Of a DNA stretch of 64,000 nucleotides, positions 8,544 to 31,229 are shown piece after piece. Origin of the DNA: Ensifer sp. BR816 (lineage in GTDB: Bacteria; Pseudomonadota; Alphaproteobacteria; Rhizobiales; Rhizobiaceae); NCBI RefSeq assembly GCF_000378985.1, contig NZ_KB905370.1:1969830-2033829 (forward strand), in the 5' to 3' direction. Within the stretch, counting starts at the first letter, position 1, and each line of letters starts with the position of its first letter. The notes under the pieces are model-generated. The model saw only the letters and a list, made by a program, of their open reading frames with translations, had not been told where the DNA came from and did not search any database. A program made the position numbers and the translations under genes.

Positions 8544-9605
8544 CTATATTTCGAGGCTGACCCGGCCGATCGGGTTGGAGCAGCAGGCGAGGATATAGCC
8601 GTCGGCGATGTCCTCGTCGGTGATGCCGCCATTGTGCACCATGTGCACCTGCCCTTCGGTCTTGCGGATCTTGCAGGTCCCGCAGATGCCCATCGAGCAA
8701 CCCGACGGGATCACCAGGCCCGCGGCTTTTGCGGCGGCGAGGATCGTGACCGTCTCTGTACACTTTGCCGAGATGCCGGAGAGCGCAAATTCGATTTCGG
8801 CCTCGCTTCGATCATTTGGAACGACATCTTTCGGAATGTTCTCGGCGTCCTGGGGCTCCGCCTGGAAGCTTTCCTGATGGTAGCGGCTCATATCGTAGCC
8901 GAGAGCGGCAAGCGCCTCGCGCACCGCCCGCATGAAGGGTTCGGGGCCGCAGCAGAACACCTCGCGCTCAAGGTAGTCCTGCGCCATCAGGCCCAGCATG
9001 ATCTGGTTGAACATCCCCCGATAGCCGGTCCAGGGCCGGAAGGGATCGGCCTCTTCAACCACCCATTTCAGATCGATGCCGACGATGCGCGACGCCATGA
9101 GTTCCATCCGGTCACGCAGGATGATCTCGGAAGGGCGGCGCGCGCAGTTGATGAAGACGATATCCGGTTCGCGCCCGGAATCGTAAAGCCAGGTGGTCAT
9201 CGCCACCATGGGTGTGATGCCGGAGCCGGCGGAGATGAAGAGGTACTTCTCGGCTGGGTAATGGACGATCGAGAACTTCCCCGCCGGTCCGATCGCCCTG
9301 ATGCGCACACCCTTGTGCAGATTGTCGAGCATCCAGCGCGTGCCGATCGACCCCTCCTGCGCCTTGACCGTGATCGTCAGTGCCGTCGGTCGCGAGGGGG
9401 CGGAAGAGATCGTGTAGGTACGATAGAGCGGCCCGCCGGGAACCGGCAGTTCCAGTGTCAGGAACTGCCCCGGATCATGGTTGAACAGCGCACCGGTCGG
9501 GCTCTGGAAGCTGAAGGTCACGACATTCGGCGCTTCCGGCGTACGGGTGACGCATTCGAGCTCTTCCGCATCGTTCCAGAAGGTCAGGTTTTTGAACGCG
9601 GTCAT
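8544..9605 (-). CDS. NAD(P)H oxidoreductase subunit of Rieske oxygenase (GbcB/CntB/Stc type)
   Basis: 353 residues. The N-terminal FAD-binding beta-barrel carries RTYTISSAPS (FAD phosphate loop), followed by an NAD domain (ISAGSGITPMVAM), and the C-terminal plant-type [2Fe-2S] ferredoxin has cysteines in CSMGICGTC plus a late CC. It passes electrons from NAD(P)H to the oxygenase encoded just upstream (5 bp between the genes). The start at ATG 9605 was chosen because longer readings overlap the oxygenase gene with non-conserved sequence. This architecture is standard for glycine betaine, carnitine and stachydrine demethylase reductases. Confidence 0.88.
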   Translation of the reverse strand: MTAFKNLTFWNDAEELECVTRTPEAPNVVTFSFQSPTGALFNHDPGQFLTLELPVPGGPLYRTYTISSAPSRPTALTITVKAQEGSIGTRWMLDNLHKGVRIRAIGPAGKFSIVHYPAEKYLFISAGSGITPMVAMTTWLYDSGREPDIVFINCARRPSEIILRDRMELMASRIVGIDLKWVVEEADPFRPWTGYRGMFNQIMLGLMAQDYLEREVFCCGPEPFMRAVREALAALGYDMSRYHQESFQAEPQDAENIPKDVVPNDRSEAEIEFALSGISAKCTETVTILAAAKAAGLVIPSGCSMGICGTCKIRKTEGQVHMVHNGGITDEDIADGYILACCSNPIGRVSLEI

Positions 9606-9610
9606 CCGCT

Positions 9611-10873
<1,263 letters not shown>

Positions 10874-12777: not shown

Positions 12778-12809
12778 ATTATAACTATCAGCCAAAGCTA
12801 GGGGAGAGC

Positions 12810-13838
12810 ATGCGTACATCCAAGATCGTGCATGTGGTGAGCTGCCATGCCGAAGGCGAAGTCGGCGACGTCATCGTCGGCGGCGTCGCGCCGCCTCCCG
12901 GCGAGACCCTCTGGGAACAGGCCCGCTGGATCGCCGAGGATGAAACGCTCCGCAACTTCGTGCTGAACGAGCCGCGCGGCGGCGTCTTCCGCCACGTCAA
13001 CCTGCTGGTGCCGCCGAAGAACTCGAAGGCGCAGATGGGCTGGATCATCATGGAACCGGCCGACACACCGCCGATGTCCGGCTCCAACTCGATCTGCGTC
13101 TCGACGGTGTTGCTCGATACGGGCATCATCCCGATGCAGGAACCGATCACCCGGATGGTGCTTGAAGCGCCCGGCGGCCTGATCGAGGTCGAGGCCGAAT
13201 GCCGCAATGGCAAGGCCGAACGTATACGCGTCCGCAACGTTCCCTCCTTCGCGGACAAGCTGGATGCGAAGCTCGAGGTCGAGGGCATAGGCACGCTGAC
13301 TGTCGATACCGCCTATGGTGGCGACAGTTTCGTGATCGTCGATGCGGCCTCCGCCGGCCTCCGGCTCGAGCCCGATCAGGCGCGCGATCTGGCGACGGCC
13401 GGCATGAAGATCACCAGGGCCGCCAATGAGCAGCTTGGCTTCAAGCACCCGGCAAACGACTGGGGCCACATCTCCTTCTGCCAGTTCACCAATCCGGTGG
13501 CGATGAAGGACGGTGTTTTGACGGGCAAGAATGCGGTTGCCATCCGCCCCGGCAAGATCGACCGCTCGCCGACCGGCACCGGATGCTCGGCGCGCATGGC
13601 CGTGCTCCATGCCAAGGGCCAGATGAAGGTCGGCGACCGCTTCGTCGGCGTCTCGCTGATCGATACCGAATTCCATTGCAGCATCGACAGCGCGGTCGAC
13701 ATCAACGGCACCCCCGGGATCAGCCCGATCATCTCCGGCCGGGCCTGGGTGGTCGGCACCAAGCAGCTGATGGTCGATCCCGACGATCCCTTCCAGGGCG
13801 GGTATCGGCTCTCCGATACTTGGCCAATGGAACTTTGA
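12810..13838 (+). CDS. Proline racemase family protein, probable trans-3-hydroxy-L-proline dehydratase
   Basis: 342 residues from ATG 12810 ([20 protein letters not shown]), with GGGGAG eight bases upstream. In racemases and 4-hydroxyproline epimerases two cysteines act as acid/base. Here the first site is Ser ([10 protein letters not shown]) and the second is Thr ([11 protein letters not shown]), so neither catalytic Cys is present. Thr at the second site is the hallmark of trans-3-hydroxyproline dehydratase, which makes pyrroline-2-carboxylate. The DpkA-like reductase two genes downstream would turn that into proline, which supports the call. The Ser/Thr pair is unusual, so activity is not certain. 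It is first in an operon with the tautomerase-like gene (10 bp gap). Confidence 0.75.
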
Positions 13839-13848
13839 GGAGCGACTG

Positions 13849-14046
13849 ATGCCGATCGTGAGAGTCGAATTGCTGACTGGCCGCAGCGCCGAGACCAAGA
13901 CCGAGGTCGCCCGCGAGATCACGAAAGTGCTCAAGGCGGTCGCCGGCATCAAGCCGAGCGCCACGACGGTGATCTTCACCGAGGTCTCGCCCTCGGATTG
14001 GGTTGTCGCCGGCGAGCCTCTGAATGCCGGCCTGCAGCCGAAATGA
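13849..14046 (+). CDS. 4-oxalocrotonate tautomerase-like protein
   Basis: 65 residues, beginning MPIVRVELLTGRSAETK. Proline directly after the initiator Met is the catalytic base of the 4-OT superfamily, and length and fold pattern match (beta strand, long helix, ATTVIFTEV strand). 4-OT enzymes shift double bonds in enols and enamines. Between a 3-hydroxyproline dehydratase and a pyrroline-2-carboxylate reductase, a role in enamine/imine tautomerisation of the dehydration product is attractive but is only inference. SD GAGGAG lies six bases before the ATG; the gap to the next gene is 21 bp. Confidence 0.82.
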   Translation: MPIVRVELLTGRSAETKTEVAREITKVLKAVAGIKPSATTVIFTEVSPSDWVVAGEPLNAGLQPK

Positions 14047-14067
14047 CAACCTGCGGAATGGATAACG

Positions 14068-15090
14068 ATGAGCAGGAACCTGGAAGAACCAAGGCGCATC
14101 GCATTTGCGGAACTCGTCGCGCTGCTCGAGCGCATCTTTGTTCGTTTCGGGACGTCCGTCCCGAACGCCAGAATTCTCGCGACAAACTGCGCCCAATGCG
14201 AGCGCGATGGCTCGCTGAGCCACGGCGTGTTCCGCATTGCCGGCTACGTGGCGTCTCTCAACAGCCGTTGGGTTGACGGCAGGGCTGTCGCCGCCATTGA
14301 GCAGCATGGGCCTTCTTTCATTCGTGTCGATGCTCGAAACGGCTTCGCGCAGCCGGCATTGGCGGCGGCGATGCCCCTAATTTGCGAGTCCGTCGCGAGA
14401 GCCGGCGTGACGATGGTGGCGATCCGCGACTCGCATCACTTCAGCGCACTCTGGCCCGACCTCGAACCCTTCGCGGACGCGGGTTTGGTCAGCCTTGCCA
14501 TGGTTTCGGGCCTCGCCTGCGTCGCACCGCCAGGCGGCCGAAAGCCGATCTTTGGAACGAACCCTCTGGCGTTTGCGACGCCGGTTGCCGGATCCAGGCC
14601 GCTGATCTTCGACTTCGCCACGAGCGCCATGTCCAATGGAGACTTGAGGCTCGCTGCGAAGGCCAAACACACCGTGCCGTTGGGAACTGGAATCGATGCG
14701 GATGGCGCATTGAGCGGTGATCCCGACGCGATCCTGAGCGGAGGAGCGCTGCTACCGTTTGGCGGGCACAAGGGTGCCTCGATCTCGCTGATGGTCGAGA
14801 TTCTGGCATCGGCCCTGACCGGAGGGCAGTTCTCTAACGAGGTCGATTTCTCGGCCCATGCAGGGGCTGAAACGCCGAAGACGGGGCAGACCATCATCGT
14901 CATCGATCCGACACGCGGCGAAACGCGAGCCTTCGCCGAACGGGTGAAGACCCTGCTCGACTGCGTCAGGGACGCCGGCCAGGCACGGCTGCCGTCGGAT
15001 CGCAGATATCAAACCCGCGCCCAGTCGGAGAGGAACGGCATTCCGTTGACGATGCGGCAATACGACGAGCTCGTCGCACTGGCTCAGTAA
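14068..15090 (+). CDS. Ldh-family (DpkA-like) NAD(P)H reductase, probable delta1-pyrroline-2-carboxylate reductase
   Basis: 340 residues of the malate/L-lactate dehydrogenase-2 family. The family motifs are present: SHG near residue 52 (SLSHGVFR) and the catalytic His pair H123-H124 (RDSHHF), then the nucleotide-loop region FGTNPLAFATP and the late LPFGGHKGASISLMVE. Family members reduce imines such as delta1-piperideine-2-carboxylate and delta1-pyrroline-2-carboxylate. Third in the operon after the racemase-family dehydratase and tautomerase, it would convert pyrroline-2-carboxylate to L-proline. ATG 14068 follows AATGGATAACG with no strong SD. Confidence 0.8.
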   Translation: MSRNLEEPRRIAFAELVALLERIFVRFGTSVPNARILATNCAQCERDGSLSHGVFRIAGYVASLNSRWVDGRAVAAIEQHGPSFIRVDARNGFAQPALAAAMPLICESVARAGVTMVAIRDSHHFSALWPDLEPFADAGLVSLAMVSGLACVAPPGGRKPIFGTNPLAFATPVAGSRPLIFDFATSAMSNGDLRLAAKAKHTVPLGTGIDADGALSGDPDAILSGGALLPFGGHKGASISLMVEILASALTGGQFSNEVDFSAHAGAETPKTGQTIIVIDPTRGETRAFAERVKTLLDCVRDAGQARLPSDRRYQTRAQSERNGIPLTMRQYDELVALAQ

Positions 15091-15285: not shown

Positions 15286-16338
15286 TCAGGCCCACGTGTC
15301 CCCTACCGTAAAACCCTCGATAAAGGGGTCGTCGTTGTCCAGAACGATGGTATTCAGGCCGTATATCCAGCTGGTGCCGGTGAGGGTCGGCACAACGGCA
15401 GGTTTGTCCCCGATTTTTGCTTCGTCGACGAGCCGGCCGGTGTATATGTTTCCCAGAATTCCCTGGTGCCGAAAATCCTGGTGAAGCGGTAGTTCACCCT
15501 TTGCATGCAGGACGGCCATTTTTGCGCAGGTGCCCGTGCCGCAGGGGCAGCGATCCAGCGCCCCTGTCCAAGTGGCGGGATTGTCCCAGGAGAAATCACC
15601 CGATGACATGGTCACCGTGTTCTTCCAGTCGGCGTTCGGGTCGTCCGTCGGCCCTGAAAGCTGGGCAACGGTGATGCCGATTCCCGGATAGTCCGGGTGG
15701 GCAACGGGCAGTTGCTCGATGGCGGCCTGCTTGATCATCGACGAGACGCGCGCAAGCTCTCGACCGTGCTCCGGGATCAGTTCGAGGCCGCGGAACTGCC
15801 GGACATCCGCGATGACGTAGAACATGCCGCCCCAGCCGACATCGACGGTCACCTTTCCAAGCTGCGGCACTTCGATGACGGCGTCCAGATGGGCCGCAAA
15901 GGCGGGCACGTTCTTGAACGTGACGCTCTTGACTTTGCCGTTCTCGCACTGGGCCTTTATCCGGATCAGACCGGCGGGCGCCTCAAGGACGAGTTCCGTG
16001 ACCGGCTCCTTCATCGGCACCATACCCACTTCCAGCAATACCGTAACCACGGAGATCGTATTGCCTCCGGACATCATCGGATATTCGATTTGCTCCATGA
16101 TGATGTAGCCGGCATCAGCCTCGGGATGCGTGGGCGGCACGATGATGTTGCAGCAGTGCGCCGGGTATCCGCGCGGCTCGCGAAGCAGAAGCTTGCGCAA
16201 CTGGTCGTCATTGGTCTCCAGCCATCTCATCTTGTCATAGACGGAGTTTCCGGGGATGTGCGGGATACCCCCGGTGACCACGCGCATGGGAGTGCCCGCA
16301 TGGGTATCGACCGCCTGGATTGTCCTCTTAAAAGCCAT
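15286..16338 (-). CDS. Proline racemase family protein with Ser/Cys catalytic pair
   Basis: 350 residues from ATG 16338, preceded by AGGAAGGACGTT. The first catalytic site is Ser (MMSGGNTISVVT) and the second is Cys ([20 protein letters not shown]). Ser/Cys members include 4-hydroxyproline 2-epimerases and trans-3-hydroxyproline dehydratases with mixed activity, so the exact reaction cannot be fixed from sequence. It lies on the strand opposite the first racemase-family operon, convergent with its reductase, and shares a GTATAC-type palindrome (16501-16518) in its promoter region. It is divergent from a betaine-binding protein gene. Confidence 0.78.
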   Translation of the reverse strand: MAFKRTIQAVDTHAGTPMRVVTGGIPHIPGNSVYDKMRWLETNDDQLRKLLLREPRGYPAHCCNIIVPPTHPEADAGYIIMEQIEYPMMSGGNTISVVTVLLEVGMVPMKEPVTELVLEAPAGLIRIKAQCENGKVKSVTFKNVPAFAAHLDAVIEVPQLGKVTVDVGWGGMFYVIADVRQFRGLELIPEHGRELARVSSMIKQAAIEQLPVAHPDYPGIGITVAQLSGPTDDPNADWKNTVTMSSGDFSWDNPATWTGALDRCPCGTGTCAKMAVLHAKGELPLHQDFRHQGILGNIYTGRLVDEAKIGDKPAVVPTLTGTSWIYGLNTIVLDNDDPFIEGFTVGDTWA

Positions 16339-16500
16339 AACGTCCTTCCTGCTAAAGTTGCACAACCCGAATTGGCGCGAAGCAGTCGCGTACGATGCGC
16401 ATCTCGCTCGTTAAGCTGTCCAGCTTCTCCATCGCTTCTTGCCTTGAACAAATCGGCCGCTGCGATCGTGAGCTTCATCCGGGGTTTTCAAGCTCTTTCA

Positions 16501-16518: not shown

Positions 16519-16678
16519 TCTTATCCGATATCGCCTTCCTGTCAACGGGTTTGTCGCTGTCGGCGAAGGTGTTCCGCCATCCGCGGAGCGACGCGGGAGC
16601 AATGGCTGACTTCTATTGGGACGGGTTAATGCGGCACCCTGTCCTCTTTTTTCACGCCGCAAATAAAAGGGAACGAGA

Positions 16679-17680
16679 ATGAGAGGAATGCTTGCGTCTA
16701 CATGTCTGCTGGTCGGTCTGGCCGGTGGAGCAGTGTCTGCCAACGCCGCCGAATGCGGCGATGTCAGTATCGTTATCCATAATGTCCAAAGCGCCGAAGT
16801 CCTCGCTTATGTGGACAAATTCATTCTGACGGAAGGATACGGTTGCAACGTCGAGACGGTACCTGGCGACACCGTGCCGACGACCACCTCCATGGTCGAA
16901 AAGGGTGACCCCGACGTCTCTCCGGAAACATGGGTTGACCTCTTGCCGGAAGTCGTTCCGCGCGGCATCAAGGAAGGCAAGATCGTGTTCGCGGCTCCCG
17001 CCTTGCCGGACGGCGGCGTACAGGGCTGGTGGATTCCCAAATACGTGGCTGACGCCCATCCCGACATCAAGACGGTCGACGACGCGCTCAAGCACCCGGA
17101 GCTTTTCCCCGACCCCGAGGATTCCAGCAAGGGCGTTATCTTCAACGGTGCGGCAGGCTGGGGCGCGACGGTCGTGACCGCTCAGCTCTACAAGGCCTAC
17201 AAAGCCGAGGAAACGGGCTTCAGGCTGCTCGATCCGGGCTCCGCGGCGGGTCTCGACGGCGCAATCGCCAAGGCCTATGAGCGCAAGGAAGGCTTCATCA
17301 CCTATTACTGGGCTCCCACATCGTTGCTCGGCAAATACGAAATGGTGATGCTCGGTGCATCCGTCCCGCACGACGCTGCGGAATGGAAGCGCTGCATCAC
17401 CAATCTGGCGTGCCCCGATCCCAAGGTGAACGCCTGGCCCGTCGACAAGGTCTATACGGTCGTGACCAAGGAATTCGCCGACCGTACCAGCCCGGAGGTC
17501 ATGGAGTATCTCAACACGCGCGGCTGGAGCAACGCGACGGTCGGCAAGCTCATGGCCTGGGAAACCGAAAACCAGGCAACGGGCGAAGAGGGCGCCAAGC
17601 ACTTCCTCGAGGAAAGCAAGGACATCTGGACCAAGTGGGTTCCCGCGGACATCGCCGAGAAGGTCGAAGCCGCCCTTTAG
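16679..17680 (+). CDS. Betaine ABC transporter substrate-binding protein (ProX/OpuAC type), orphan copy
   Basis: 333 residues with a signal peptide (residues 1-23, cleavage after SANA). This is the glycine/proline-betaine binding fold (OpuAC): the GWW at GVQGWWIPKY, YYWAPTSLLGKY and the terminal KWVPADIAEKVEAAL are typical. It is closely related to the binding protein at 21448-22449 along its length, but no permease or ATPase lies beside it. It faces the Ser/Cys racemase-family gene. It probably delivers a second betaine to the single importer encoded at 19434-21351. AAGGGAACGAGA precedes the ATG. Confidence 0.85.
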   Translation: MRGMLASTCLLVGLAGGAVSANAAECGDVSIVIHNVQSAEVLAYVDKFILTEGYGCNVETVPGDTVPTTTSMVEKGDPDVSPETWVDLLPEVVPRGIKEGKIVFAAPALPDGGVQGWWIPKYVADAHPDIKTVDDALKHPELFPDPEDSSKGVIFNGAAGWGATVVTAQLYKAYKAEETGFRLLDPGSAAGLDGAIAKAYERKEGFITYYWAPTSLLGKYEMVMLGASVPHDAAEWKRCITNLACPDPKVNAWPVDKVYTVVTKEFADRTSPEVMEYLNTRGWSNATVGKLMAWETENQATGEEGAKHFLEESKDIWTKWVPADIAEKVEAAL

Positions 17681-17759
17681 GTGCTGCGAGCAACCTGCGG
17701 TGCCCCAAAATGGCATCGCACGCTTTTCATGGCGAAGTCGCAAATATCGGCAAAATGCG

Positions 17760-18191: not shown

Positions 18192-19193
18192 TCACGCGCC
18201 CGCGATTTTCACGATATTATCGTACACGCTGCGCGGCATGCGAATGCCCTCCGACGGGGGCCGCGGATATTGGATGCCGCTTACCCCCGGCACGAACACG
18301 CCGTGGCCTTGGAGCCGGGCAGCTTGTTCGCGCGCACGCCCGACACGATCAGCACCGGCGGGACCCGGCAGCATCGCGACCACCGTCAAGCCCACCGCTG
18401 GAGACGTTGTGCCCGACATGAAATCGGCCGTGTCCAACGACCACGGCCCGCCGGACAGCCCGGCCGACAGCATTTCCACCATCAACGCCACGTTCGCTCC
18501 CTTGCGACCGCCGAAGGGCAGGAGTGCGCCGGCGAGGGCCTTCGTGGCATCCTGGGTGGCCACACCATTTTCGTCGACGGCCCACCCCTCGGGGATGGTG
18601 CGGCCCTCGGCGGCGGCGGCCACGATGTTGACATAGGCGGTCGCGCTCGACGCCTGATCGATGATCAACGGCAACGAACCCTCTCCGAGCGGAAAGCCGA
18701 ATGCCATTGGGTTGGTGCTGTAGACGGCGGGTCCGCCAGGCTTTGCGACCACCATCGCGTTGGCGTTCGTCGCTGCGATGCCGACGATGCCCTCCGCCGC
18801 GAGCCTTCGCACGAAGTAGCCGAGTTCGCCGGCGGTGTAGCTGTTCGTCTGCGTGAAGACCGCCACCCCCAATTGCCGCACCGCCCCGACCAGATCCTTG
18901 AAGGCGCGATCGAAACCGAGCTGTGCGATACCCCGATCGGCATCGCAAACGAAAAAGGCCGGGAACGGGCGTTGCAGAGTCGGTGCCGGATCGCAGTTGA
19001 TACGCCCCTCGCGGAAGCTGTTCAGGTAATCCACCATGTGCGGAAATCCGAGCACGGGAGGGCCGTAGAGCGCCGCCGACAGGGTTGCGTCGACGAGTGA
19101 GCGGGCGGTGGCTTCCCTGGCGCCGGCCGCCAGGCAAGCGCGTTTCGCCAGTTCTTCTGCTTGCGCCAAGCCGAGTGAGACCTCATCTGACAT
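18192..19193 (-). CDS. Divergent Ldh-family oxidoreductase lacking the usual active-site His
   Basis: 333 residues from ATG 19193 (MSDEVSLGLAQAEELAKR). The fold signatures of the malate/L-lactate dehydrogenase-2 family are clear (STNPMAFGFP, then LPFGGRKGANVALMVEML). However, the conserved SHHF is NSYTA here (S118, Y119, T120), and the N-terminal SHG is replaced by YGPP. It may have a different chemistry or substrate from the paralog at 14068. It lies downstream of the betaine ABC operon on the same strand, separated by a large hairpin. Roles in reducing a cyclic imine are inferred from the paralog only. Confidence 0.75.
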   Translation of the reverse strand: MSDEVSLGLAQAEELAKRACLAAGAREATARSLVDATLSAALYGPPVLGFPHMVDYLNSFREGRINCDPAPTLQRPFPAFFVCDADRGIAQLGFDRAFKDLVGAVRQLGVAVFTQTNSYTAGELGYFVRRLAAEGIVGIAATNANAMVVAKPGGPAVYSTNPMAFGFPLGEGSLPLIIDQASSATAYVNIVAAAAEGRTIPEGWAVDENGVATQDATKALAGALLPFGGRKGANVALMVEMLSAGLSGGPWSLDTADFMSGTTSPAVGLTVVAMLPGPAGADRVGRAREQAARLQGHGVFVPGVSGIQYPRPPSEGIRMPRSVYDNIVKIAGA

Positions 19194-19334
19194 GCTGAAT
19201 CTCCAATCCAGTTTTTCTTGCTTGGTAAAAAGGCATATGGGGCCCGCCGCGGCGCAGTCGCTGATCTGGCGCGCCGGAATACCCAGTTCGGTAAGTTGAG
19301 GCATGAGCCAGCCGGCCGGGAATTCGTGGTCACG

Positions 19335-19433: not shown

Positions 19434-20463
<1,030 letters not shown>

Positions 20464-20471
<8 letters not shown>

Positions 20472-21351
20472 GGACGACCTCCCTGTGCTTCTGCAGCCGC
20501 TTGCCATAGGCCTGGCTGACGCGGTCGAAGATGATGGCGATGCCGACGATGGCAAGGCCGTTGAAAATGCCGAGGGTGAAATACTGGTTGGCAATCGCCT
20601 TCAGCACCGGCTGGCCGAGACCCTGGACGCCGATCATCGAGGCGATGACGACCATGGCGAGCGCCATCATGATCGTCTGGTTGATGCCGGCCATGATGGT
20701 CGGCAAGGCGAGCGGCAGTTGCACGTTCCTGAGCTTCTGCCAGCTCGACGAGCCGAAGGCGTCGGCCGCCTCGAGCACGTCCTTGTCGACGAGGCGGATG
20801 CCGAGATCGGTGAGCCGGATCATCGGCGGGATGGCATAGATGACCACCGCGATCAGCCCCGGCACCTTGCCGATGCCGAGCAGCATGACGACGGGAATGA
20901 GATAGACGAAGCTCGGCATCGTCTGCATGACGTCGAGCACCGGGTTCACGATCCGCTGCATCCGGTCGGAACGCGACATCAGAATGCCCATCGGGATACC
21001 GATGGCGATCGACAGCACGGTGCAGACGAAGATCATCGAGACCGTCCGCATCGTGTCGTCCCACATGTCGAAATAGCCGATCGCCAGCAGCGTGACGAGA
21101 CAGCCGGCGACCACTTTCCAGCTCCGGCTCGCCCCCCAGGCAATCACCAGGATGATCAGCATGATGATCGGCCAAGGCGTCTTCGTCATGAAGCGCTCGG
21201 CGGCGATCAGGAAATGCTGCAAGGGCGAGAAGAAGCCTTCGATGATATCGCCATAGGCGCGCGTGAACGCCCGGAATCCCTCGTCGATGACCTTCTTCAG
21301 TTCTCGGAGCGAGTCGTCGTTCATGTTTGGAAATTTAAAAAACCAGTCCAT
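20464..21351 (-). CDS. Betaine ABC transporter permease (ProW/ChoW type)
   Basis: 295 residues from ATG 21351 (MDWFFKFPNMNDDSL) with AGGGGAACCGA upstream. About six hydrophobic segments are visible. The cytoplasmic coupling loop is EAADAFGSSSWQKLRNVQLPLALP, the typical EAA motif. One permease type only, so it should act as a homodimer. It lies 96 bp after the binding-protein gene and overlaps the ATPase gene. Confidence 0.9.
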
Positions 21352-21447
21352 TCGGTTCCCCTTTTCAAAGAAGCCGTTGTGAGCTTTTTCTTGTTTTTCG
21401 GCCATGGAATGGGACGCGCTTGGCGCGCGCCCCACTTGTCAGGTGGC

Positions 21448-22449
21448 TTAGAGCGCCGCCTTGATCTTCTCGGCGGCTTCCGGCGTGACCCACTTCGTCC
21501 AGACGTCCTCGTTTTCTTCGAGGAAGTGCTTGGCACCTTCTTCGCCGCTCGCCTGGTTGTCCGTCATCCAGGCCATCAGCTTGCTGACGGTGTCATTGCT
21601 CCAGGAGCGCTTGTTCAGGTAGTCCATGACCTCGGGGCCGGCCTTCTCCGAGAAGGGCTTGGCCACCAGCGTCACGATGGTGTCGACCGGCCAGGCGCTC
21701 GGCTTCGGGTCAGGGCAATCGGCCACGGTAATGCACCGCTTCCACTCCGCTGGGTCTTCCGCAACGCCGTATTCGAGCTTGACCATCGGATATTTGCCGA
21801 CGAGGGCGGTCGGCGCCCAATAGTATCCGACCCAAGCTTTCTTGGCCTCATACGCCTTGGCGATGGAGCCGTCCAGGCCGGCGGCCGAGCCGGTGTCGAC
21901 GAGCTTGAAGCCGGCCTTCTCGGCATCGAACGCCTTATAGAGCTGCGAGGTGACGACGGTGCCGCCCCAGCCCTGTGGCCCGTTGTAGATCGCACCCTTG
22001 CTCGGGTCTTCCGGATCAGGAAACAGTTCCGGATGCTTCAACGCGTCGGGAATCGTCTTGATGTCCGGATGGGCATCCGCGAAATATTTGGGGATCCACC
22101 AGCCCTGCACGCCACCATCTGGAAGCGGAGAGCCGACCTTGATGATACGGCCTTCTTCCGTGCCTTTCTTGACGACGTCCGGCAGCAGGTCGATCCAGGC
22201 CTCGGGCGCGATATCGGGCTCGCCCTTTTCTGCCATGGAGGTGATCGTCGGGACGGTGTCGCCGATGGTGATTTCGGCTTCGCAGCCGTAACCCTCGTTC
22301 AGAATGATCTTGTCGAGGTTGGAAAGCACTTCCGCGCTCTGCCAGTTCATGCTCGCGATGGTCAGCGATCCGCATTCCGCGGCGCCCGCGACGGACGCGC
22401 CTCCCAGTACGCCAAGCGTGAGGCATGTTGATGCAAGTAGGTACCTCAT
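21448..22449 (-). CDS. Betaine ABC transporter substrate-binding protein
   Basis: 333 residues with a signal peptide (cleavage after SVAGA, about residue 23). OpuAC/ProX betaine-binding family, the same length and largely the same sequence order as the orphan paralog at 16679 (shared GVQGWWIPKY, HPDIKT, EEGAKHFLEE). Aromatic residues in GWW and YYWAPTALVGKYP are the usual cation-pi cage positions. It is first of the three transporter genes (binding protein, permease, ATPase) and follows a ProC-like gene by 70 bp, so import and proline metabolism may share a transcript. Confidence 0.9.
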   Translation of the reverse strand: MRYLLASTCLTLGVLGGASVAGAAECGSLTIASMNWQSAEVLSNLDKIILNEGYGCEAEITIGDTVPTITSMAEKGEPDIAPEAWIDLLPDVVKKGTEEGRIIKVGSPLPDGGVQGWWIPKYFADAHPDIKTIPDALKHPELFPDPEDPSKGAIYNGPQGWGGTVVTSQLYKAFDAEKAGFKLVDTGSAAGLDGSIAKAYEAKKAWVGYYWAPTALVGKYPMVKLEYGVAEDPAEWKRCITVADCPDPKPSAWPVDTIVTLVAKPFSEKAGPEVMDYLNKRSWSNDTVSKLMAWMTDNQASGEEGAKHFLEENEDVWTKWVTPEAAEKIKAAL

Positions 22450-22519: not shown

Positions 22520-23314
22520 TCAGGAGCGCTCTCCCATGTTCATCGATTTCTGATATGCGGCCGCAAGTCCGTCTCGGACGGCAGCGTCGAAGCCGGCGGC
22601 GCGCATCGCTTCGATTGCTGCGGCGGTCGTCCCGCGGTAGCTGACAAAGGCCTCGACCGTATCGGCGGGACATTCGCCGTTCTTCTCGAAGAGACGCCCG
22701 GATCCGACCAGCACGGTGGTTACCGCTCGCCGTGCCACATCCGGCTTGATGCCGCGCGACACGGCATCGCGCATCATGGCGTCAGCCAAGAGAGCGGGGA
22801 AAGCCGGCCCCGAACCGGAAAGCCCGGTCAGGTAATCGATGTCGCTCTCGCTCGCGACCTCGTCCTGTGTTCCGCAGGCGTCGAAGATCGCGCGGACGGT
22901 CGCGCGGTCTTGCTCGTTCACACCTTCCGAGCCGATCCAGGGCGTATAGGATTTGCCGACCTCAGCCGCGGCGTTGGGCAAGCTGCGGACGGCCCTTTCC
23001 GTATTGTGATGGTGAGCCAAATCGCGCAAACGAACGCCGGCCATGACGGAAACCACGAGCTTGCCATGGACATCGACCATGAGCGGCGGCCAGTCAGCAG
23101 GACGGACCGAGACAATGATCATGTCCGAGCGATCGGCGAGCTCCTGGTTGTTCTTGGTCCAGCGAACGCCTTGTACGCCTGTCGGCTGCTCGCTTCGATA
23201 GGACAGTGTAAGGTTTTCGGGGGAGGCGAGCCCTCTATCGAGGATCGCCTCGACGATAGCCCCGCCAAGCCAGCCACTTCCGCCAATGATGCCGATTTTC
23301 AGCGCGTCGCTCAT
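22520..23314 (-). CDS. Pyrroline-5-carboxylate reductase (ProC) family protein
   Basis: 264 residues. Rossmann motif GIIGGSGWLGGAI at residues 8-20, then SVRPADWP and the C-terminal dimerisation motif DYLTGLSGSGPAF. ProC normally reduces pyrroline-5-carboxylate to proline. In a catabolic locus beside a betaine importer it may act on another cyclic imine or salvage P5C, and the sequence alone does not decide this. It follows the TetR gene by 17 bp and precedes the binding-protein gene, so TetR-proC-ABC is a likely operon. Confidence 0.82.
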   Translation of the reverse strand: MSDALKIGIIGGSGWLGGAIVEAILDRGLASPENLTLSYRSEQPTGVQGVRWTKNNQELADRSDMIIVSVRPADWPPLMVDVHGKLVVSVMAGVRLRDLAHHHNTERAVRSLPNAAAEVGKSYTPWIGSEGVNEQDRATVRAIFDACGTQDEVASESDIDYLTGLSGSGPAFPALLADAMMRDAVSRGIKPDVARRAVTTVLVGSGRLFEKNGECPADTVEAFVSYRGTTAAAIEAMRAAGFDAAVRDGLAAAYQKSMNMGERS

Positions 23315-23331: not shown

Positions 23332-23958
23332 TTATCCGGAGTAACCGTGCCGTGCGGAGAAGCGATCGAGCTCCCTCTGCTCCGGCACCTGCCCGGTGAA
23401 AATTTCCACATATTCCGGGATGCGCTTCATGCGGACGGAGACGTCTTCCGTCGTCTGCATCGAAATGTACCCGATCTGCACCAGATAGATCGTTCGTGCC
23501 CGAACATCGGCGTGGGGTGCGTCGTACCCAAATCGAAGGAACATGCGCGACAGGGCATCGAGACGCTGCTGGTCGGCGCTCTGGACCTCTCTTAGAATTT
23601 CGGGTGACTGAAGGGCCCAGCTTCTCACCGCAAACTCGAATTGCGAGTCGAAAAGCCTGCTATCCAGCCAGCAGTCAAAAACGTTCAGCATCGCCTCGGC
23701 AACCGTCTCGGCATAGGCATCGGCCTGCTTGACGAGGTTGCCCGTGTTCTTCTCGCGCCACCGCGCAACCAGCGCTTCAAGCAGTTCTTCGCGATCCTTG
23801 AAGAACCAATAGAAGCTCGTTCGCGACAGGTTCAGCTTCTTGGCCAGGGGCTGGATCTTCACGGAATCGACGCCAGCCTCCAGCAGCGACTCGTAAGCCG
23901 CGCTCAGCCAGACATCCGGGGAACCACGCCAACCGCTATCGTTCATGGTCTGCTCCAT
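23332..23958 (-). CDS. TetR-family regulator of the demethylase locus
   Basis: 208 residues from ATG 23958, supported by the SD TAGGAG seven bases upstream. The N-terminal HTH is VDSVKIQPLAKKLNLSRTSFYWFFKDREELLEAL, and the rest is a helical ligand domain. It is divergent from the StcD-like gene, and two dyads carrying TGTACA boxes flank that gene's promoter. It probably represses both directions and is relieved by a methylated proline or a related metabolite. Confidence 0.85.
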   Translation of the reverse strand: MEQTMNDSGWRGSPDVWLSAAYESLLEAGVDSVKIQPLAKKLNLSRTSFYWFFKDREELLEALVARWREKNTGNLVKQADAYAETVAEAMLNVFDCWLDSRLFDSQFEFAVRSWALQSPEILREVQSADQQRLDALSRMFLRFGYDAPHADVRARTIYLVQIGYISMQTTEDVSVRMKRIPEYVEIFTGQVPEQRELDRFSARHGYSG

Positions 23959-24101: not shown

Positions 24102-26138
24102 ATGTCGAACGATCCCCTTCTTCAGCCCTATCAGCTCAAGCACCTGACGCTGCGCAACCGCATCATCGTGACCGCGCACGAACCGGCCTATCCGGAAGAC
24201 GGCATGCCGAAAGAGCGCTATCGCGCCTACACGGTGGAGCGCGCCAAGGGTGGGGTGGCGATGACGATGACCGCCGGATCGGCGGCCGTCTCGAAGGACA
24301 GTCCGCCGGTGTTCAACAACCTTCTCGCCTACAAGGACGAGATCGTTCCGTGGATAAGAGAGATGACCGACGCCGTGCACGAGGAAGGCGCGGCGATCAT
24401 GATCCAGCTCACCCATCTCGGTCGCCGTACACGGTGGGACAAGGGTGAGTGGCTGCCGGTCGTCGCCCCATCGCATCACCGCGAAGCCTCGCACCGCGCC
24501 TTTCCGAAGAAGATCGAGGACTGGGACATCGAGCGGATCATCAAGGATTTCGCCGATGCGGCCGAGCGGATGAAGGCCGGCGGCATGGACGGCGTCGAAC
24601 TCGAGGCCTACGGTCACCTCATCGACCAGTTCAATTCGCCGCTGACGAACGAGCTCGATGGTCCTTACGGCGGCTCGCTCGACAACCGCATGCGCTTCTG
24701 TTTCGACGTCCTGAAGGCGATCCGCACGCGAGTCGGGGACGATTTCATCCTCGGCGTGCGCTACACGGCCGACGAATGTCTTCCCGGCGGGACGGGCAAG
24801 GCAGAGGGCATCGAGATTTCGAAGCGCCTCAAGGAAAGCGGGCTCATCGACTACCTGAACGTCATCCGCGGGCATATCGATACGGACGCCGGCCTGACCG
24901 ACGTCATCCCGATCCAGGGCATGGCCAATTCGCCGCATCTCGATTTCGCCGGCGAAATCCGCGCTGCTACGAATTTCCCGACCTTCCATGCCGCGAAGAT
25001 CCCCGACGTCGCGACCGCGCGTCATGCGATCGCGTCCGGCAAGGTCGACATGGTCGGCATGACCCGTGCCCACATGACCGACCCGCATATCGTCCGCAAG
25101 ATCATCGAGAAGCGCGAGGACGACATTCGGCCCTGCGTCGGCGCCAACTACTGTCTCGACCGCATCTACCAGGGCGGCGCCGCCTATTGTATCCACAATG
25201 CGGCGACCGGGCGCGAGCTGACGATGCCGCACACGATCGCCCAGGCGGACCGTCGCAAGAAGATCGTGATCGTCGGCGCCGGACCGGCCGGCCTGGAGGC
25301 CGCGCGTGTCGCTGGCGAGCGCGGCCACGAGGTCGTCGTGTTCGAAGCGGCGAATGATCCCGGCGGACAGATCCGGCTGACGGCCCAGAGCGAGCGCCGC
25401 CGGGAGATGATCAGCATCATCGACTGGCGCATGAGCCAGTGCGAGAAGCTCGGCGTCACCTTCCATTTCAACACCTGGGCGGAGGCCGAGACCGTCGCGG
25501 CGGAAAGCCCGGACGTCGTCGTCATCGCGACGGGTGGGCTCCCGCATACGGAAGTGCTCTCCAAGGGCAACGAGCTCGTCGTCTCCGCCTGGGATATCAT
25601 CTCCGGCGACGTCAAGCCGGGCAGCAACGTGTTGATCTTCGACGACGCCGGCGACCATGCCGGCCTGCAGGCCGCCGAATTTCTCGCCAATGCCGGCGCG
25701 AAGGTCGAGATCATGACCCCCGATCGCTCCTTCGCGCCGGAAGTCATGGCGATGAACCTCGTCCCCTACATGCGCTCCTTGCAGAAGCTCGATGTGACCT
25801 TCACGGTCACCTACCGTCTGGAAGCGGTCGAGAAGAACGGCAACCAGCTTGTCGCCCATGTCGGCAGCGACTACGGCGGCGTCGAAAAGCAACGGTCCTT
25901 CGACCAGATCGTCGTCAACCATGGCACCATTCCGCTCGACGAGCTCTATTTTGAACTGAAGCCGGCCTCGAGCAACCTTGGTGAAATGTCGCACGATCAG
26001 TTGATCGCCGGCAGGCCGCAAGCCGTCTGGCGCAACGCGGATGGCAAGTTCCAGCTCTTCCGCATCGGCGATGCGGTCGCGGCGCGCAACACGCACGCGG
26101 CTATCTATGACGCCCTTCGCCTTCTCAAGGACATCTGA
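24102..26138 (+). CDS. stcD: N-methylproline demethylase (StcD-like, OYE/TMADH family flavoenzyme)
   Basis: 678 residues, the length of the trimethylamine-dehydrogenase group. The N-terminal old-yellow-enzyme TIM barrel (about 1-370) carries the [4Fe-4S] cysteines in RPCVGANYC and AAYCIHN. The C-terminal FAD/NAD domain starts at KKIVIVGAGPAGLEAARV. Enzymes of this group oxidatively demethylate secondary and tertiary amines and pass electrons to ETF. Here etfB and etfA lie 0.7-1.5 kb downstream, with formaldehyde-oxidising genes after them. S. meliloti StcD is the closest named relative I can offer from context. SD GGAG lies about nine bases before the ATG. Confidence 0.82.
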   Translation: MSNDPLLQPYQLKHLTLRNRIIVTAHEPAYPEDGMPKERYRAYTVERAKGGVAMTMTAGSAAVSKDSPPVFNNLLAYKDEIVPWIREMTDAVHEEGAAIMIQLTHLGRRTRWDKGEWLPVVAPSHHREASHRAFPKKIEDWDIERIIKDFADAAERMKAGGMDGVELEAYGHLIDQFNSPLTNELDGPYGGSLDNRMRFCFDVLKAIRTRVGDDFILGVRYTADECLPGGTGKAEGIEISKRLKESGLIDYLNVIRGHIDTDAGLTDVIPIQGMANSPHLDFAGEIRAATNFPTFHAAKIPDVATARHAIASGKVDMVGMTRAHMTDPHIVRKIIEKREDDIRPCVGANYCLDRIYQGGAAYCIHNAATGRELTMPHTIAQADRRKKIVIVGAGPAGLEAARVAGERGHEVVVFEAANDPGGQIRLTAQSERRREMISIIDWRMSQCEKLGVTFHFNTWAEAETVAAESPDVVVIATGGLPHTEVLSKGNELVVSAWDIISGDVKPGSNVLIFDDAGDHAGLQAAEFLANAGAKVEIMTPDRSFAPEVMAMNLVPYMRSLQKLDVTFTVTYRLEAVEKNGNQLVAHVGSDYGGVEKQRSFDQIVVNHGTIPLDELYFELKPASSNLGEMSHDQLIAGRPQAVWRNADGKFQLFRIGDAVAARNTHAAIYDALRLLKDI

Positions 26139-26184
26139 CATCGAGTCGGGCCGCCCCGGGGCGGCCCCTTACAGGGGATACGCA

Positions 26185-26787
26185 ATGACAGGTCGAAGCG
26201 AAGCTCTGCAGTTGTTCGTCGATGCTGCCTTCGCGGCGTTCGACCAGTTCGCGCAGGCCCCGGAATCGCGCCGGTCGATCCGGCAAATTTTTTCCGCGCT
26301 CGAAGTGCCTGGCGCGGAAAGGTCCGGTCCCGGAAGCCAGCTGCCGGTGTGCTCGCAGCTCGACACGGCGTTTGCCATTGAAACGGAACACGAGTCGCTC
26401 CACCGCCTGGTCGAACGGTTCAAGGCGATCGAACCGCGGCTCGAATGGCGGCGCCGCACGAACTACCACAGTTCCGCCAGCGGCAATTACCTCGACGGCC
26501 ACGCCAATGCGATGATCATAGGACCCGGCGGCCTCGAGGATCGGCGGGACCTATGGTTCGGCGTTACGTTGATGGCACCGAACGTCCGTTATCCGGACCA
26601 TGATCACGCGCCGGAAGAGGTCTATCTCGTCCTGTCAGAGGGAGAATTCCGGCAAGGGCAGGGGGCGTGGTTCTCGCCCGGCATTGGCGGTTCCTTCTAC
26701 AACGAGCCGGGAATCCGGCACGCCATGCGCTCCGTCGATACAGCGCTCTTTGCCTTCTGGGTGCTGCTGGCCAACAGGCCCGACTAG
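26185..26787 (+). CDS. Cupin enzyme resembling DMSP lyase DddQ
   Basis: 200 residues from ATG 26185 (SD AGGGGATACGCA), the length of DddQ. The metal and catalytic residues fall at the DddQ spacing: Y136, H141, E145, Y147 and H179 ([13 protein letters not shown], then GIRHAM), matching Y120/H125/E129/Y131/H163 as I recall them for the Ruegeria enzyme. The N-terminal half is helical, as in DddQ/DddL. It sits between the StcD-like gene and etfB in one operon, so a role in handling a betaine or its products, not necessarily DMSP, is likely. This is the second DMSP-lyase-like gene in the window. Confidence 0.72.
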
Positions 26788-26828: not shown

Positions 26829-27578
26829 ATGAAAATCCTAGTCACGGTAAAACGGGTCGTCGACTTCAACGTCAAGATCCGGGTGAAGGCGGACGGTTCG
26901 GGCGTCGAACTCGCCAACGTCAAGATGTCGATGAACCCGTTCGACGAGATCTCGGTCGAAGAGGCGCTGCGGCTCAAGGAAGCCGGCAAGGCCTCGGAAG
27001 TGGTGGTCGTGTCGATCGGCCCGGCCAAGGCCGAGGAGACGCTGCGGACGGCGCTCGCCATGGGCGCCGACCGGGCGATCCTCGTCGAGACCGACGATGC
27101 CGTCGAGCCGCTCGCGGTCGCCAAGATCGTCAAGGGTGTGGCCGAGGCGGAGCAGCCGGGGCTGATCATCGTCGGCAAGCAGGCGATCGACGACGACAGC
27201 AACCAGACCGGCCAGATGCTGTCGGCGCTGCTCGGCTGGGCCCAGGGCACCTTCGCCTCGAAGGTCGAGATCGGCGACGGCAAGGTCGATGTTACCCGCG
27301 AGGTCGACGGCGGCCTGCAGACGGTCGAACTGAAGCTGCCGGCGGTGGTGACCACGGATCTGCGCCTGAACGAGCCGCGCTATGCCTCGCTGCCGAACAT
27401 CATGAAGGCGAAGAAGAAGCCGCTCGACAAGAAGACACCGGCCGATTTCGCCGTCGACACCGCGCCGCGGCTGAAGATCTTGAAGACCGAGGAGCCGTCC
27501 GGCCGCAAGGCCGGCATCAAGGTCAAGTCGGTTGCCGAGCTCGTCGACAAGCTCAAGTCCGAAGCCGGCGTACTCTAA
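26829..27578 (+). CDS. etfB: Electron transfer flavoprotein beta subunit
   Basis: 249 residues, the standard length. It begins [18 protein letters not shown] and has the EtfB motifs [17 protein letters not shown]-type (here [10 protein letters not shown]), [16 protein letters not shown] and the C-terminal adenine-site region [12 protein letters not shown]. It pairs with etfA 26 bp downstream. The ETF most likely accepts electrons from the StcD-like demethylase and passes them to the quinone pool through ETF-QO, which is not in this window. Confidence 0.93.
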
Positions 27579-27604: not shown

Positions 27605-28537
27605 ATGGCCATTCTGCTTCTGGCTGACCACGACACCACCCACCTTTCCGACCAGACGGCCAAGGCGCTGACGGCGGCCTCCAAGATCGGGTCCGACGTC
27701 CACGTTCTCGTCGCCGGCGCGAACGCCAAGGGCGTTGCCGAGCAAGCCGCGAAGCTTGCCGGCGTCTCCAAGGTGCTCGTCGCCGACGACGCGTCGCTTG
27801 CCAACAATCTGGCAGAGCCGCTCGCAGCTACGATCGTCTCGCTCGCCGCTTCCTACGACACCATCGTCTCGGCCGCCACCTCGGTCGGCAAGAACGTCAT
27901 GCCGCGGGTCGCCGCGCTCCTCGACGTCGCCCAGGTCTCGGAGATCATCGAAGTCGTCTCTGCCGACACCTTCAAGCGGCCGATCTATGCCGGCAATGCC
28001 ATCCAGACGGTGCAGACGAGCGACGCCAAGAAGGTCATCACCGTTCGCACTGCATCTTTCCCCCCCGCTCCGGCGGGTAACTCGGCTGTCGTCGAGGAAA
28101 TCTCGGCGACAGCTTTTTCTTCCGATCTGTCCAGGCATGTTTCCGATGCGCTGTCGTCGTCGGACCGGCCGGAACTGACCTCGGCCAGGATCATCATCTC
28201 CGGCGGCCGGGCGCTCGGTTCGTCGGAGAAGTTCAAGGAAGTGATCCTGCCGGTCGCCGACAAGCTCGGTGCCGCCGTCGGCGCGTCGCGCGCCGCCGTC
28301 GATGCCGGCTATGCCCCGAACGACTGGCAGGTCGGCCAGACCGGCAAGGTGGTCGCCCCCGACCTCTACATCGCCTGCGGCATCTCCGGTGCCATCCAGC
28401 ACCTCGCCGGCATGAAGGATTCGAAGGTCATCGTCGCCATCAACAAGGACGAGGAGGCACCGATCTTCCAGGTCGCCGACTACGGCCTCGTCGCCGACCT
28501 CTTCGACGTTCTGCCGGAGCTCGAAAAGGCGCTCTGA
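27605..28537 (+). CDS. etfA: Electron transfer flavoprotein alpha subunit
   Basis: 310 residues. The C-terminal FAD-binding half is unmistakable: [12 protein letters not shown], then [32 protein letters not shown] and [16 protein letters not shown]. It forms a heterodimer with EtfB. ATG 27605 has an SD (AAAGGGAGAC) upstream. The 92 bp after the stop contain no obvious terminator, so the formaldehyde dehydrogenase gene may be in the same transcript. Confidence 0.93.
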
Positions 28538-28629: not shown

Positions 28630-29757
<1,128 letters not shown>

Positions 29758-29759
29758 CC

Positions 29760-30602
29760 ATGAAAACGAACTCTAAAGAGAAGTCGCATGGCGGCATTCA
29801 GGGCGTCTACGCGCATCGTTCCGAGGTGTGCGATTGCGACATGACCTTCGCGGTGTTCGTGCCGCCGCAAGCGGCCGAACGGCCGTGTCCGGTCGTCTGG
29901 TATCTGTCGGGGCTGACCTGCACCCACGCCAACGTCATGGAGAAGGGCGAGTATCGGCGGCTGGCCGCAGAATTCGGCCTCATCGTCGTCTGCCCGGATA
30001 CCAGCCCTCGTGGTGACGGTATTCCCGATGAACCGGACAATTGGCAGTTCGGCAAGGGGGCCGGCTTCTACGTCGATGCGACGCAGCAGCCGTTCGCCGC
30101 CAACTACCGGATGTATTCCTATGTGACGCAGGAACTGCCGCAGCTGGTCGCGGCGTCGTTCCCCGCCGACATGGAACGGCAGGGCATCTTCGGGCATTCG
30201 ATGGGCGGCCACGGGGCCCTGACGATCGCGCTCAAGAAACCGGACCGCTACCGTAGTTGCTCGGCCTTCGCGCCAATCAGCCATCCGAGCGTCTCCGGCT
30301 GGTCGAAACCGGCCTTGGAAAAATATCTCGGCAGCGACGAAACGGCGTGGCGGCAGTATGATAGCTGCGCGCTGATCGAGGACGGCCATAGATTCCCGGA
30401 GTTTCTCGTCGATCAGGGGCGCGCGGACACTTTCCTCGAGGACGGCCTCAGGCCGGGCGAGCTTGAAAGCGCCTGCGCGGCCGCCGGCATTCCGCTGACG
30501 CTGAGACTGCGGGAAGGCTACGGGCATTCGTATTTCTTCATCTCCACCTTCATGGACGACCATCTGCGATGGCATGCCGAGCGGCTGAAGAAACAAGCAT
30601 GA
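29760..30602 (+). CDS. fghA: S-formylglutathione hydrolase
   Basis: 280 residues, esterase D family. Nucleophile elbow GHSMGGHGA, the family signature YLSGLTCTHANVMEKG near the N-terminus and the late His in GYGHSYFF. It hydrolyses S-formylglutathione to formate and glutathione, the step after AdhI. The ATG at 29760 follows the adhI stop TGA by 2 bp, so the two are coupled. Confidence 0.93.
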   Translation: MKTNSKEKSHGGIQGVYAHRSEVCDCDMTFAVFVPPQAAERPCPVVWYLSGLTCTHANVMEKGEYRRLAAEFGLIVVCPDTSPRGDGIPDEPDNWQFGKGAGFYVDATQQPFAANYRMYSYVTQELPQLVAASFPADMERQGIFGHSMGGHGALTIALKKPDRYRSCSAFAPISHPSVSGWSKPALEKYLGSDETAWRQYDSCALIEDGHRFPEFLVDQGRADTFLEDGLRPGELESACAAAGIPLTLRLREGYGHSYFFISTFMDDHLRWHAERLKKQA

Positions 30603-30656: not shown

Positions 30657-31229
30657 ATGGGTAGCATCGCCATTCACCCGTCGGTCGACGGCGGCAGAAA
30701 GCAGCAAGCAGGATCCTTTGCCGGCGGCACGCTGGTCTGCGAATGCGTCACCAATCCGGTAAAGGTGCGGGTCAAGAGCGACATCGCGCACAACCATGCC
30801 TGCGGCTGCACCAAGTGCTGGAAGCCGAAAGGCGCCAACTTCTCGGTCGTCGCCGTGGCGCCGACGGACAGCGTCGAGGTGCTGGAAAACGGTGACAAGC
30901 TTGCGGTCGTCGATGCGTCCGCGCTGATCCAGCGCCATGCCTGCAAGGCGTGCGGCGTGCACCTCTACGGCCCCGTCGAGCGGGATCATCCGTTCAAGGG
31001 GCTGTCGTTCATCCATCCGGAACGCTTCCAGGACGAAGGCTGGGCGGAGCCGGGCTTTGCCGCCTTCGTCTCCTCGATCATCGAGAGCGGCTTCGATCCG
31101 TCCGGCATGGACGATGTCCGGGCGCGGCTGAAGGAACTGGGGCTCGAGCCCTACGACTGCCTCAATCCCGCGCTGATGGACTATATCGCGACCTGGACCG
31201 CCAAGAAGAACGGCGTTCTTCCCGCATGA
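30657..31229 (+). CDS. gfa: S-(hydroxymethyl)glutathione synthase
   Basis: 190 residues, Gfa family. Zinc-binding cysteines in [14 protein letters not shown] and HACKACGVH follow the family spacing. It speeds the condensation of formaldehyde with glutathione, the first step of the pathway encoded by the two genes before it. A strong SD (AAGGGAAGGAGAG) precedes ATG 30657. It closes the betaine demethylation block; no clear terminator follows within the 125 bp to the next gene. Confidence 0.9.

Follow-up and report, generated by a model that had tools for sequence, protein, structure and literature searches.

Dimethylsulfoniopropionate (DMSP) lyases such as the cupin DddQ form DMS and acrylate from DMSP and are usually, though not by strict definition, accompanied by the acrylate-handling partner AcuI, while DddP represents another DMSP lyase family. 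Among the enzymes acting on proline derivatives, HpbD is an enolase-type (hydroxy)proline-betaine epimerase, and t3HypD together with pyrroline-2-carboxylate reductase forms a known enzyme pair. Six residues of DddQ are described as located in the active site and required (PMC4437653), and DddK is reported to bind its substrate by the metal and to take the C-alpha proton with Tyr64 (PMC10686828). The reactions of the proline racemase superfamily (PRS) that are described in PMC4113996 start with alpha-proton removal. This step is shared by the PRS family and DddQ. The stcD gene encoding the N-methylproline demethylase of stachydrine breakdown is located on pSymB, as stated in PMC12239276. Here, a DddQ-like cupin gene was analysed that is part of a stretch of 64,000 nucleotides from Ensifer sp. 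BR816, referred to below as the window, and its genetic surroundings were compared with these systems.

The cupin gene and its surroundings

The gene at positions 26185-26787 of the plus strand is an intact open reading frame for a protein of 200 amino acids that was assigned to the DddQ-like (DLL) cupins by Pfam, residue alignment and an AlphaFold model. A Pfam profile search yielded 197.9 bits for PF16867 (DMSP_lyase) at a curated cut-off of 27, and no NCBIfam family was detected at E 0.001. The predicted model (mean pLDDT 94.2) combines N-terminal helices with a cupin barrel, which is the fold of the DLL/PF16867 proteins, and superimposes on the DddQ structures with Z values of 19.2-20.3 over 180-185 residues, nearly its whole length, compared with 15.4 for DddY and about 11 for other, ordinary cupins. 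The first-pass annotation had claimed that the DddQ residue set is present at identical spacing, and the alignment bears this out: Y136, H139, H141, E145, Y147 and H179 were all found, and their spacing of 3-2-4-2-32 equals that of Y120/H123/H125/E129/Y131/H163 in the DddQ structure 4la2, the last gap being 33 in 5cu1 and 4b29. The motif Y136-P-D-H139-D-H141-A-P-E144-E145-V-Y147 (26590-26625, plus strand) contains putative metal ligands and catalytic tyrosines, according to the roles of the DddQ counterparts described in PMC4437653, and H179 (26719-26721, plus strand) is a putative metal ligand that aligns with H163 of DddQ. All 46 rows of the wider cupin clade keep Y136, H139, H141, E144, E145, Y147 and H179, so that the presence of the residue set is not due to chance. 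An ungapped comparison with three close relatives (84, 82 and 78% amino acid identity), from which the out-of-register L005 was left out, gave 17/13/62, 21/14/71 and 26/16/100 changes at codon positions 1/2/3. No relatives of the cupin were found in viral contigs. Taken from its sequence, the product is probably a small metal-binding protein related to the marine DMSP-cleaving enzymes.

The cupin gene starts 46 nt past the stop codon of stcD (24102-26138, plus strand), which encodes a StcD/HpbA-type N-methylproline demethylase of 678 amino acids. This FMN/FAD flavoprotein was classified by its Oxidored_FMN and Pyr_redox_2 domains and its close relation to StcD/HpbA, sharing 92% identity with a pSymB-encoded protein of S. 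meliloti 2011 and 74% with the P. pantotrophus protein that is called HpbA in RefSeq. Downstream of the cupin gene and on the same strand follow etfB (26829-27578), recognised by its ETF domain, and etfA (27605-28537), named after annotated orthologues, so that the placement between stcD and etfB given in the first-pass annotation was confirmed. These genes precede three genes of the plus strand for a class III alcohol/S-(hydroxymethyl)glutathione dehydrogenase (FrmA-like, 28630-29757) and an S-formylglutathione hydrolase (FghA-like, 29760-30602), both with annotated orthologues, and for the S-(hydroxymethyl)glutathione synthase Gfa (30657-31229; TIGR02820 above cut-off). Divergently from stcD, the minus strand carries the genes for a TetR regulator (23332-23958), a P5CR-like protein (22520-23314) and an OpuAC-type betaine ABC transporter, consisting of the betaine-binding protein ProX (21448-22449), a ProW-like permease (20464-21435) and a ProV-like ATPase (19434-20594), the latter two named after annotated orthologues and with uncertain starts. 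The P5CR-like protein reached 178.7 bits against a ProC cut-off of 196.75 and is a candidate imine reductase, possibly a pyrroline-2-carboxylate (or N-methyl) reductase; genes of this type were found next to the cupin gene or to that of a PRS protein with a single active-site cysteine. A GC-rich palindrome at 26139-26184, between stcD and the cupin gene, folds at -21.4 kcal/mol with the stop codon included and is a possible mRNA processing or attenuation site; the corresponding gaps of L002-L004 have different sequences and fold at -19.9 to -23.7, and those of L005 and L111 at only about -8.

The remaining part of the window adds a GbcA-like Rieske oxygenase (9611-10849, minus strand; 483 bits against a cut-off of 670) as the candidate first demethylase and its candidate reductase partner (8544-9668, minus strand), which shares 37% identity with a protein annotated as hybrid-cluster NAD(P)-dependent oxidoreductase. 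Two genes specify PRS proteins, namely the t3HypD-like PRS1 with a Ser/Thr active site (12810-13838, plus strand) and PRS2 with a Ser/Cys active site (15286-16365, minus strand), and two specify Ldh2-family proteins that share 31% identity, a candidate pyrroline-2-carboxylate reductase (14068-15090, plus strand) and a dehydrogenase (18192-19304, minus strand). Methylaspartate genes are likewise located within the window, which looks like a region for the degradation of N-methylated and hydroxylated prolines. The open reading frames at 12798-14237 and 16652-17743, both on the minus strand, were dropped as genes because they lie on the wrong strand. Beside the Rieske genes, an M24-family protein (7106-8386, minus strand) is related to DddP with 367 bits at a cut-off of 600, and its orthologue in R. 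johnstonii is annotated as an Xaa-Pro peptidase. With this protein and the cupin, two relatives of DMSP lyase families are encoded in one betaine region.

Association with StcD and with hydroxyproline-type modules

The distribution of the cupin was studied in 81 unevenly related loci, comprising the window and the best 80 of 107 named loci. Its gene lies directly behind stcD in 72 of them and within 10 kb of stcD in 75, a P5CR-like gene is found within 5 kb in 71, and etfB follows directly in 22 of the 58 loci with enough visible sequence. On pSymB of S. meliloti 2011 the same gene order is present with a cupin that is 76% identical to that of the window, and we infer that the pSymB stcD gene of PMC12239276 is the one found beside this cupin gene. 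On plasmid pPAN2 of P. pantotrophus, the cupin gene is flanked by the RefSeq-named hpbA and by etfB, and a mandelate-racemase-type gene lies nearby. Of 297 genomes of the family, 85 contain a StcD orthologue (69% or more) and 22 contain the cupin (150 bits or more); 18 genomes have both, corresponding to a hypergeometric probability of 1e-7 with kinship ignored. The presence of the cupin is thus linked to that of StcD, although most genomes with StcD are devoid of it. In view of its position directly behind stcD, with the same order in S. meliloti and P. pantotrophus, the cupin is an accessory of proline-betaine and hydroxyproline-betaine catabolism that is conserved yet optional.

Two closer relationships to neighbouring genes were also considered. 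A P5CR-like protein is not an obligate partner of the cupin, since no such neighbour was detected in L111, L214 and L215; a P5CR gene was also present in 5 of 20 StcD loci without cupin (L191-L210). Replacement of HpbD by the cupin is not supported, as an HpbD-type gene is located near the cupin gene in L114 and L215; the search for HpbD in the genome of Ensifer sp. BR816 gave a best match of 36% identity. In L211 (G209:C8), the cupin gene is in two pieces beside an intact stcD, and the same genome contains an intact StcD-cupin pair (L212).

A second DLL cupin is encoded after etfA in stc operons of the R. leguminosarum type (L012:12353-13048; RL_RS35515 in L271:3025-3720; L105-L110). In 7 of 7 tree rows its counterparts of H141, E145, H179 and Y136 are changed to Q/K/R/E, R/T/S, F/L and F, respectively, and none of 13 aligned relatives retains H141, E145 or H179. 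Judged by these residues, the second cupin is probably a paralogue that carries no metal, next to a metal-competent cupin.

Cupins encoded away from StcD were found in operons of the order DapA-ALDH-DAO-betaine ABC-P5CR-cupin (L065, L167), and in L042 a gene for a GlxA-type regulator is inserted between P5CR and the cupin. The trans-4-hydroxyproline route described in PMC4113996 involves the same superfamilies, DAO, DapA and ALDH. The L065 record is titled Mycobacterium sp. KBS0706; by gene content the locus is of alphaproteobacterial type, and the label may be wrong. In total, 50 DapA-ALDH-DAO loci were collected, of which 24 complete modules with an OpuBC-type transporter were counted. Left out were nine loci cut before the relevant slot (L009, L012, L013, L019, L022, L028, L033, L041 and L081), L059, which is cut by a contig end, L281, which is degraded and has only two of its four ABC genes and neither PRS nor cupin, four loci without an OpuBC-type transporter (L030, L080, L181 and L274) and eleven with a distant DAO (L259 and L261-L270; cupin in none, PRS1 in two). 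L273 was counted as PRS-bearing, with a gene that spans the start of the circular record and a match in two pieces that may be frameshifted.

The comparison of the 24 modules yielded 21 with a gene for a PRS protein after the permease genes and no cupin gene inside the operon, and the remaining three modules lack a PRS gene and all contain a cupin gene (Fisher p 4.9e-4, kinship ignored). Two of the 21 PRS modules, L271 and L272, have a cupin gene upstream in an stc operon on the same strand; with these counted as cupin-bearing, the ratio becomes 2 of 21 versus 3 of 3 (p 4.9e-3). In some others of the 21, the upstream side is cut. All p values are optimistic, since several modules are close kin. 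L042 and L231 are sister modules (DapA, ALDH and DAO 92% identical, SH-aLRT 100) that differ in the swap of PRS and cupin, and a tree of 86 cores does not place the three module cupins as mutual nearest relatives, with moderate support between L042 and L065.

All 20 PRS proteins read from OpuBC-type modules (e.g. L271:15187-16185 and L246 at about 9321) have a glycine in place of the second active-site cysteine, and the first cysteine motif is kept in 19 of the 20, as aligned to 1w61. RefSeq lists this one-cysteine PRS protein of R. johnstonii 3841 as 4-hydroxyproline epimerase. PRS proteins with the Cys/Cys pair are encoded elsewhere in the genomes of the cupin-type loci L042, L065, L167 and L080 (G681, G682, G280 and G684) and also in that of the PRS-type module L231 (G212). 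The glycine replacement and these additional Cys/Cys proteins render the reaction of the one-cysteine PRS proteins uncertain, and by sequence it may not be epimerisation. Mutual exclusion of cupin and PRS per genome was rejected as a general rule, since both coexist in at least 8 of the 22 cupin-bearing genomes of the family, including that of the window, and a PRS and a cupin gene are found side by side in L030. A class-level search for further hydroxyproline modules gave hits in 3 of 385 genomes, that of the window included. The apparent replacement of a proline-racemase-family protein by a cupin, as read from these gene orders, is a new and rather unexpected lead.

Relationship to DddQ

In the tree of 86 cores, from which the broken cupin of L211, the partial L138, L043 and near-identical rows (thresholds of 88% and then 78%) were omitted, the three DddQ structures form a clade of their own (100/94), and the cupin of the window belongs to a 64-row clade (100/94) that excludes them. 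Forcing the window cupin and DddQ into one clade was 50.7 log units worse (p-AU 0.030); given three DddQ references, core sequences and long branches, this is moderate evidence for the placement. The tree check proposed in the first-pass annotation thus puts the cupin outside the DddQ structures, with the metal-ligand residues present in its sequence. Differences were also observed at positions that, judged by the alignment, would line the pocket. The rows of the wider clade have histidine at position 106 (45 of 46) and asparagine at 108 (46 of 46), where DddQ has aromatic residues or cysteine; positions 118, 120 and 122 are Glu, Arg and Asp (45, 45 and 46 of 46) compared with Phe, Ser/Thr and Ser/Gln in DddQ, and position 173 is Asn (45 of 46) instead of His. 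The corresponding residues of the window cupin are H106, N108, E118, R120, D122 and N173. Moreover, a search for AcuI/YhdH in the whole genome produced no match above the cut-off of 297.25, the best one scoring 102.5 bits, in agreement with the earlier claim that the gene is not part of a DMSP locus.

These data bear on the reading that the cupin is a bona fide DMSP lyase releasing DMS and acrylate, with the stcD operon merely sharing an osmolyte-induced regulator. The DddQ fold, the complete catalytic set and the public-record label of relatives speak for it, but the separate clade, the different pocket, the genome without AcuI above cut-off and identified neighbours for N-demethylation and formaldehyde oxidation make it highly improbable, and a DMSP lyase proper was rejected. 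Relatives of the cupin are present in 232 plasmid records, and 22 of 60 listed rows are labelled 'dimethylsulfoniopropionate lyase' or similar. Most of these labels are probably misnomers, and they can feed into surveys of DMS production. The first-pass annotation had regarded a betaine role for a cupin related to the DMSP lyases as new. Such a role is well supported by the location behind stcD, the position outside the DddQ clade and the invariant residues; the finding is less novel than assumed, as relatives in the same operon already carry the DMSP lyase label. In the literature searched, no function was found for the cupin of stc/hpb clusters, nor, judged mostly by listings, any paper linking a cupin to a racemase or to stcD.

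Proposed reaction and comparison with known systems

Since in many soil bacteria a relative of the DMSP lyases is located inside a set of genes for the breakdown of proline-type plant osmolytes, the cupin probably performs a reaction related to DMSP cleavage on another compound. By analogy, we propose, with a probability of roughly 40%, that this member of the DMSP-lyase-like (DLL) superfamily has been recruited into proline-betaine and hydroxyproline-betaine catabolism and acts there on N-methylated prolines as an epimerase/racemase (or dehydratase) that abstracts the alpha proton. The fold, the invariant DddQ residue set, the place directly behind stcD and the apparent replacement of PRS in the modules speak for this proposal. 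A substrate of the N-methylated (hydroxy)proline type, for example stachydrine, N-methylproline or a hydroxyproline betaine, would bind to the metal of the cupin through its carboxylate, and the alpha proton would be taken by one of the invariant tyrosines, Y147 or Y136, as in DddK and DddQ; by spacing, Tyr64 of DddK is the counterpart of Y147. Because these substrates, unlike DMSP with its sulfonium, have no leaving group beta to the carboxylate, the carbanion would be reprotonated on the opposite face. On a ring with a 3-hydroxyl group, water might be lost instead, and the P5CR-like protein would then reduce the imine. The cupin would thereby carry out proline-racemase-type chemistry on a different scaffold, beside stcD, the etf genes and a formaldehyde-oxidation route. 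Several observations count against this proposal, namely the coexistence of PRS and cupin in individual genomes, the cupin genes upstream of the PRS modules L271 and L272, the Cys/Cys PRS proteins kept elsewhere in genomes with cupin-type modules, the uncertain reaction of the one-cysteine PRS, the HpbD-type neighbours in L114 and L215, the pair in L030 and the many StcD genomes devoid of the cupin. Distant relatives of the cupin, which also weigh against it, adjoin carnitine, sarcosine/folate, formate-THF-ligase or CoA-ligase genes, so that the cupin family appears to be wider than one substrate.

A dehydratase that, in the manner of the t3HypD pair, acts on a 3-hydroxylated (N-methyl)proline so that the P5CR-like protein can reduce the pyrroline to (N-methyl)proline, seems unlikely to us, although beta-elimination is the chemistry of DddQ and the P5CR-like gene adjoins the cupin gene in L065, L080, L167, L168 and L169 and the one-cysteine PRS gene in L231, L232, L234, L240 and L273/L303. 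Among solved structures, 6r76 matches the one-cysteine PRS proteins best, and it has a threonine at the position in question, as have the t3HypDs. However, the hydroxyproline modules carry DAO, DapA and ALDH, superfamilies of the 4-hydroxy route, the P5CR-like gene is absent from most PRS-type modules, and the cupin genes of L111, L214 and L215 were found without such a neighbour. The location between stcD and etfBA and ahead of the FrmA, FghA and Gfa genes would also suit a helper that aids the breakdown of the N-hydroxymethyl or iminium product of StcD or the transfer of formaldehyde. Relatives near genes for formate-THF ligase (L151 by NCBIfam, L150 by eye), PurU (L065), annotated sarcosine oxidase, FolD and PurU (L301) and annotated GlyA (L113) point in this direction, but L042 and L167 contain the cupin without detected StcD or FrmA/FghA/Gfa and most StcD genomes lack it, which leaves such a role in C1 metabolism with a small chance. 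A non-catalytic partner with a ligand-binding or structural function would be in line with the loss of ligands in the paralogue of R. leguminosarum-type operons, for which at least a binding role fits; for the cupin of the window it is improbable, as its catalytic set is invariant in 46 of 46 rows.

If the proposed epimerisation or dehydration of proline betaines applies, the cupin would supply a missing step in a catabolic route for plant-derived compounds, and the DLL cupins would gain a second chemistry, which would bear directly on the ancestry of DddQ. A more far-reaching idea, which we consider rather unlikely, is that the DddQ-like cupins of stc/hpb clusters use metal and tyrosine to epimerise (racemise) proline and hydroxyproline betaines, as a third unrelated solution beside HpbD and the proline racemase family, and that the marine DddQ activity is an offshoot of an older betaine enzyme.

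In comparison with the described systems, the cupin of the window resembles DddQ (4la2, 4b29 and 5cu1) in its fold over nearly the whole length, the six active-site residues and the spacing of 4la2, but differs in a sequence identity of only 16-22% in structural alignments, in clade, pocket residues and operon, and in the genome without AcuI above cut-off. It is a member of the DLL cupins (PF16867) by Pfam, and the place of its subfamily beside stcD/hpbA is strongly conserved. The window shares StcD/HpbA, ETF, the Rieske oxygenase and the betaine ABC transporter with the stc and hpb clusters for stachydrine and hydroxyproline betaine. With the proline racemase superfamily (ProR, 4HypE and t3HypD), the cupin would have the proposed alpha-proton abstraction in common, and it occurs in three operons in which the PRS protein is missing; the folds, however, are unrelated, and the Cys/Ser (Cys/Thr, Ser/Cys) residues of the PRS proteins contrast with the metal and the tyrosine of the cupin.
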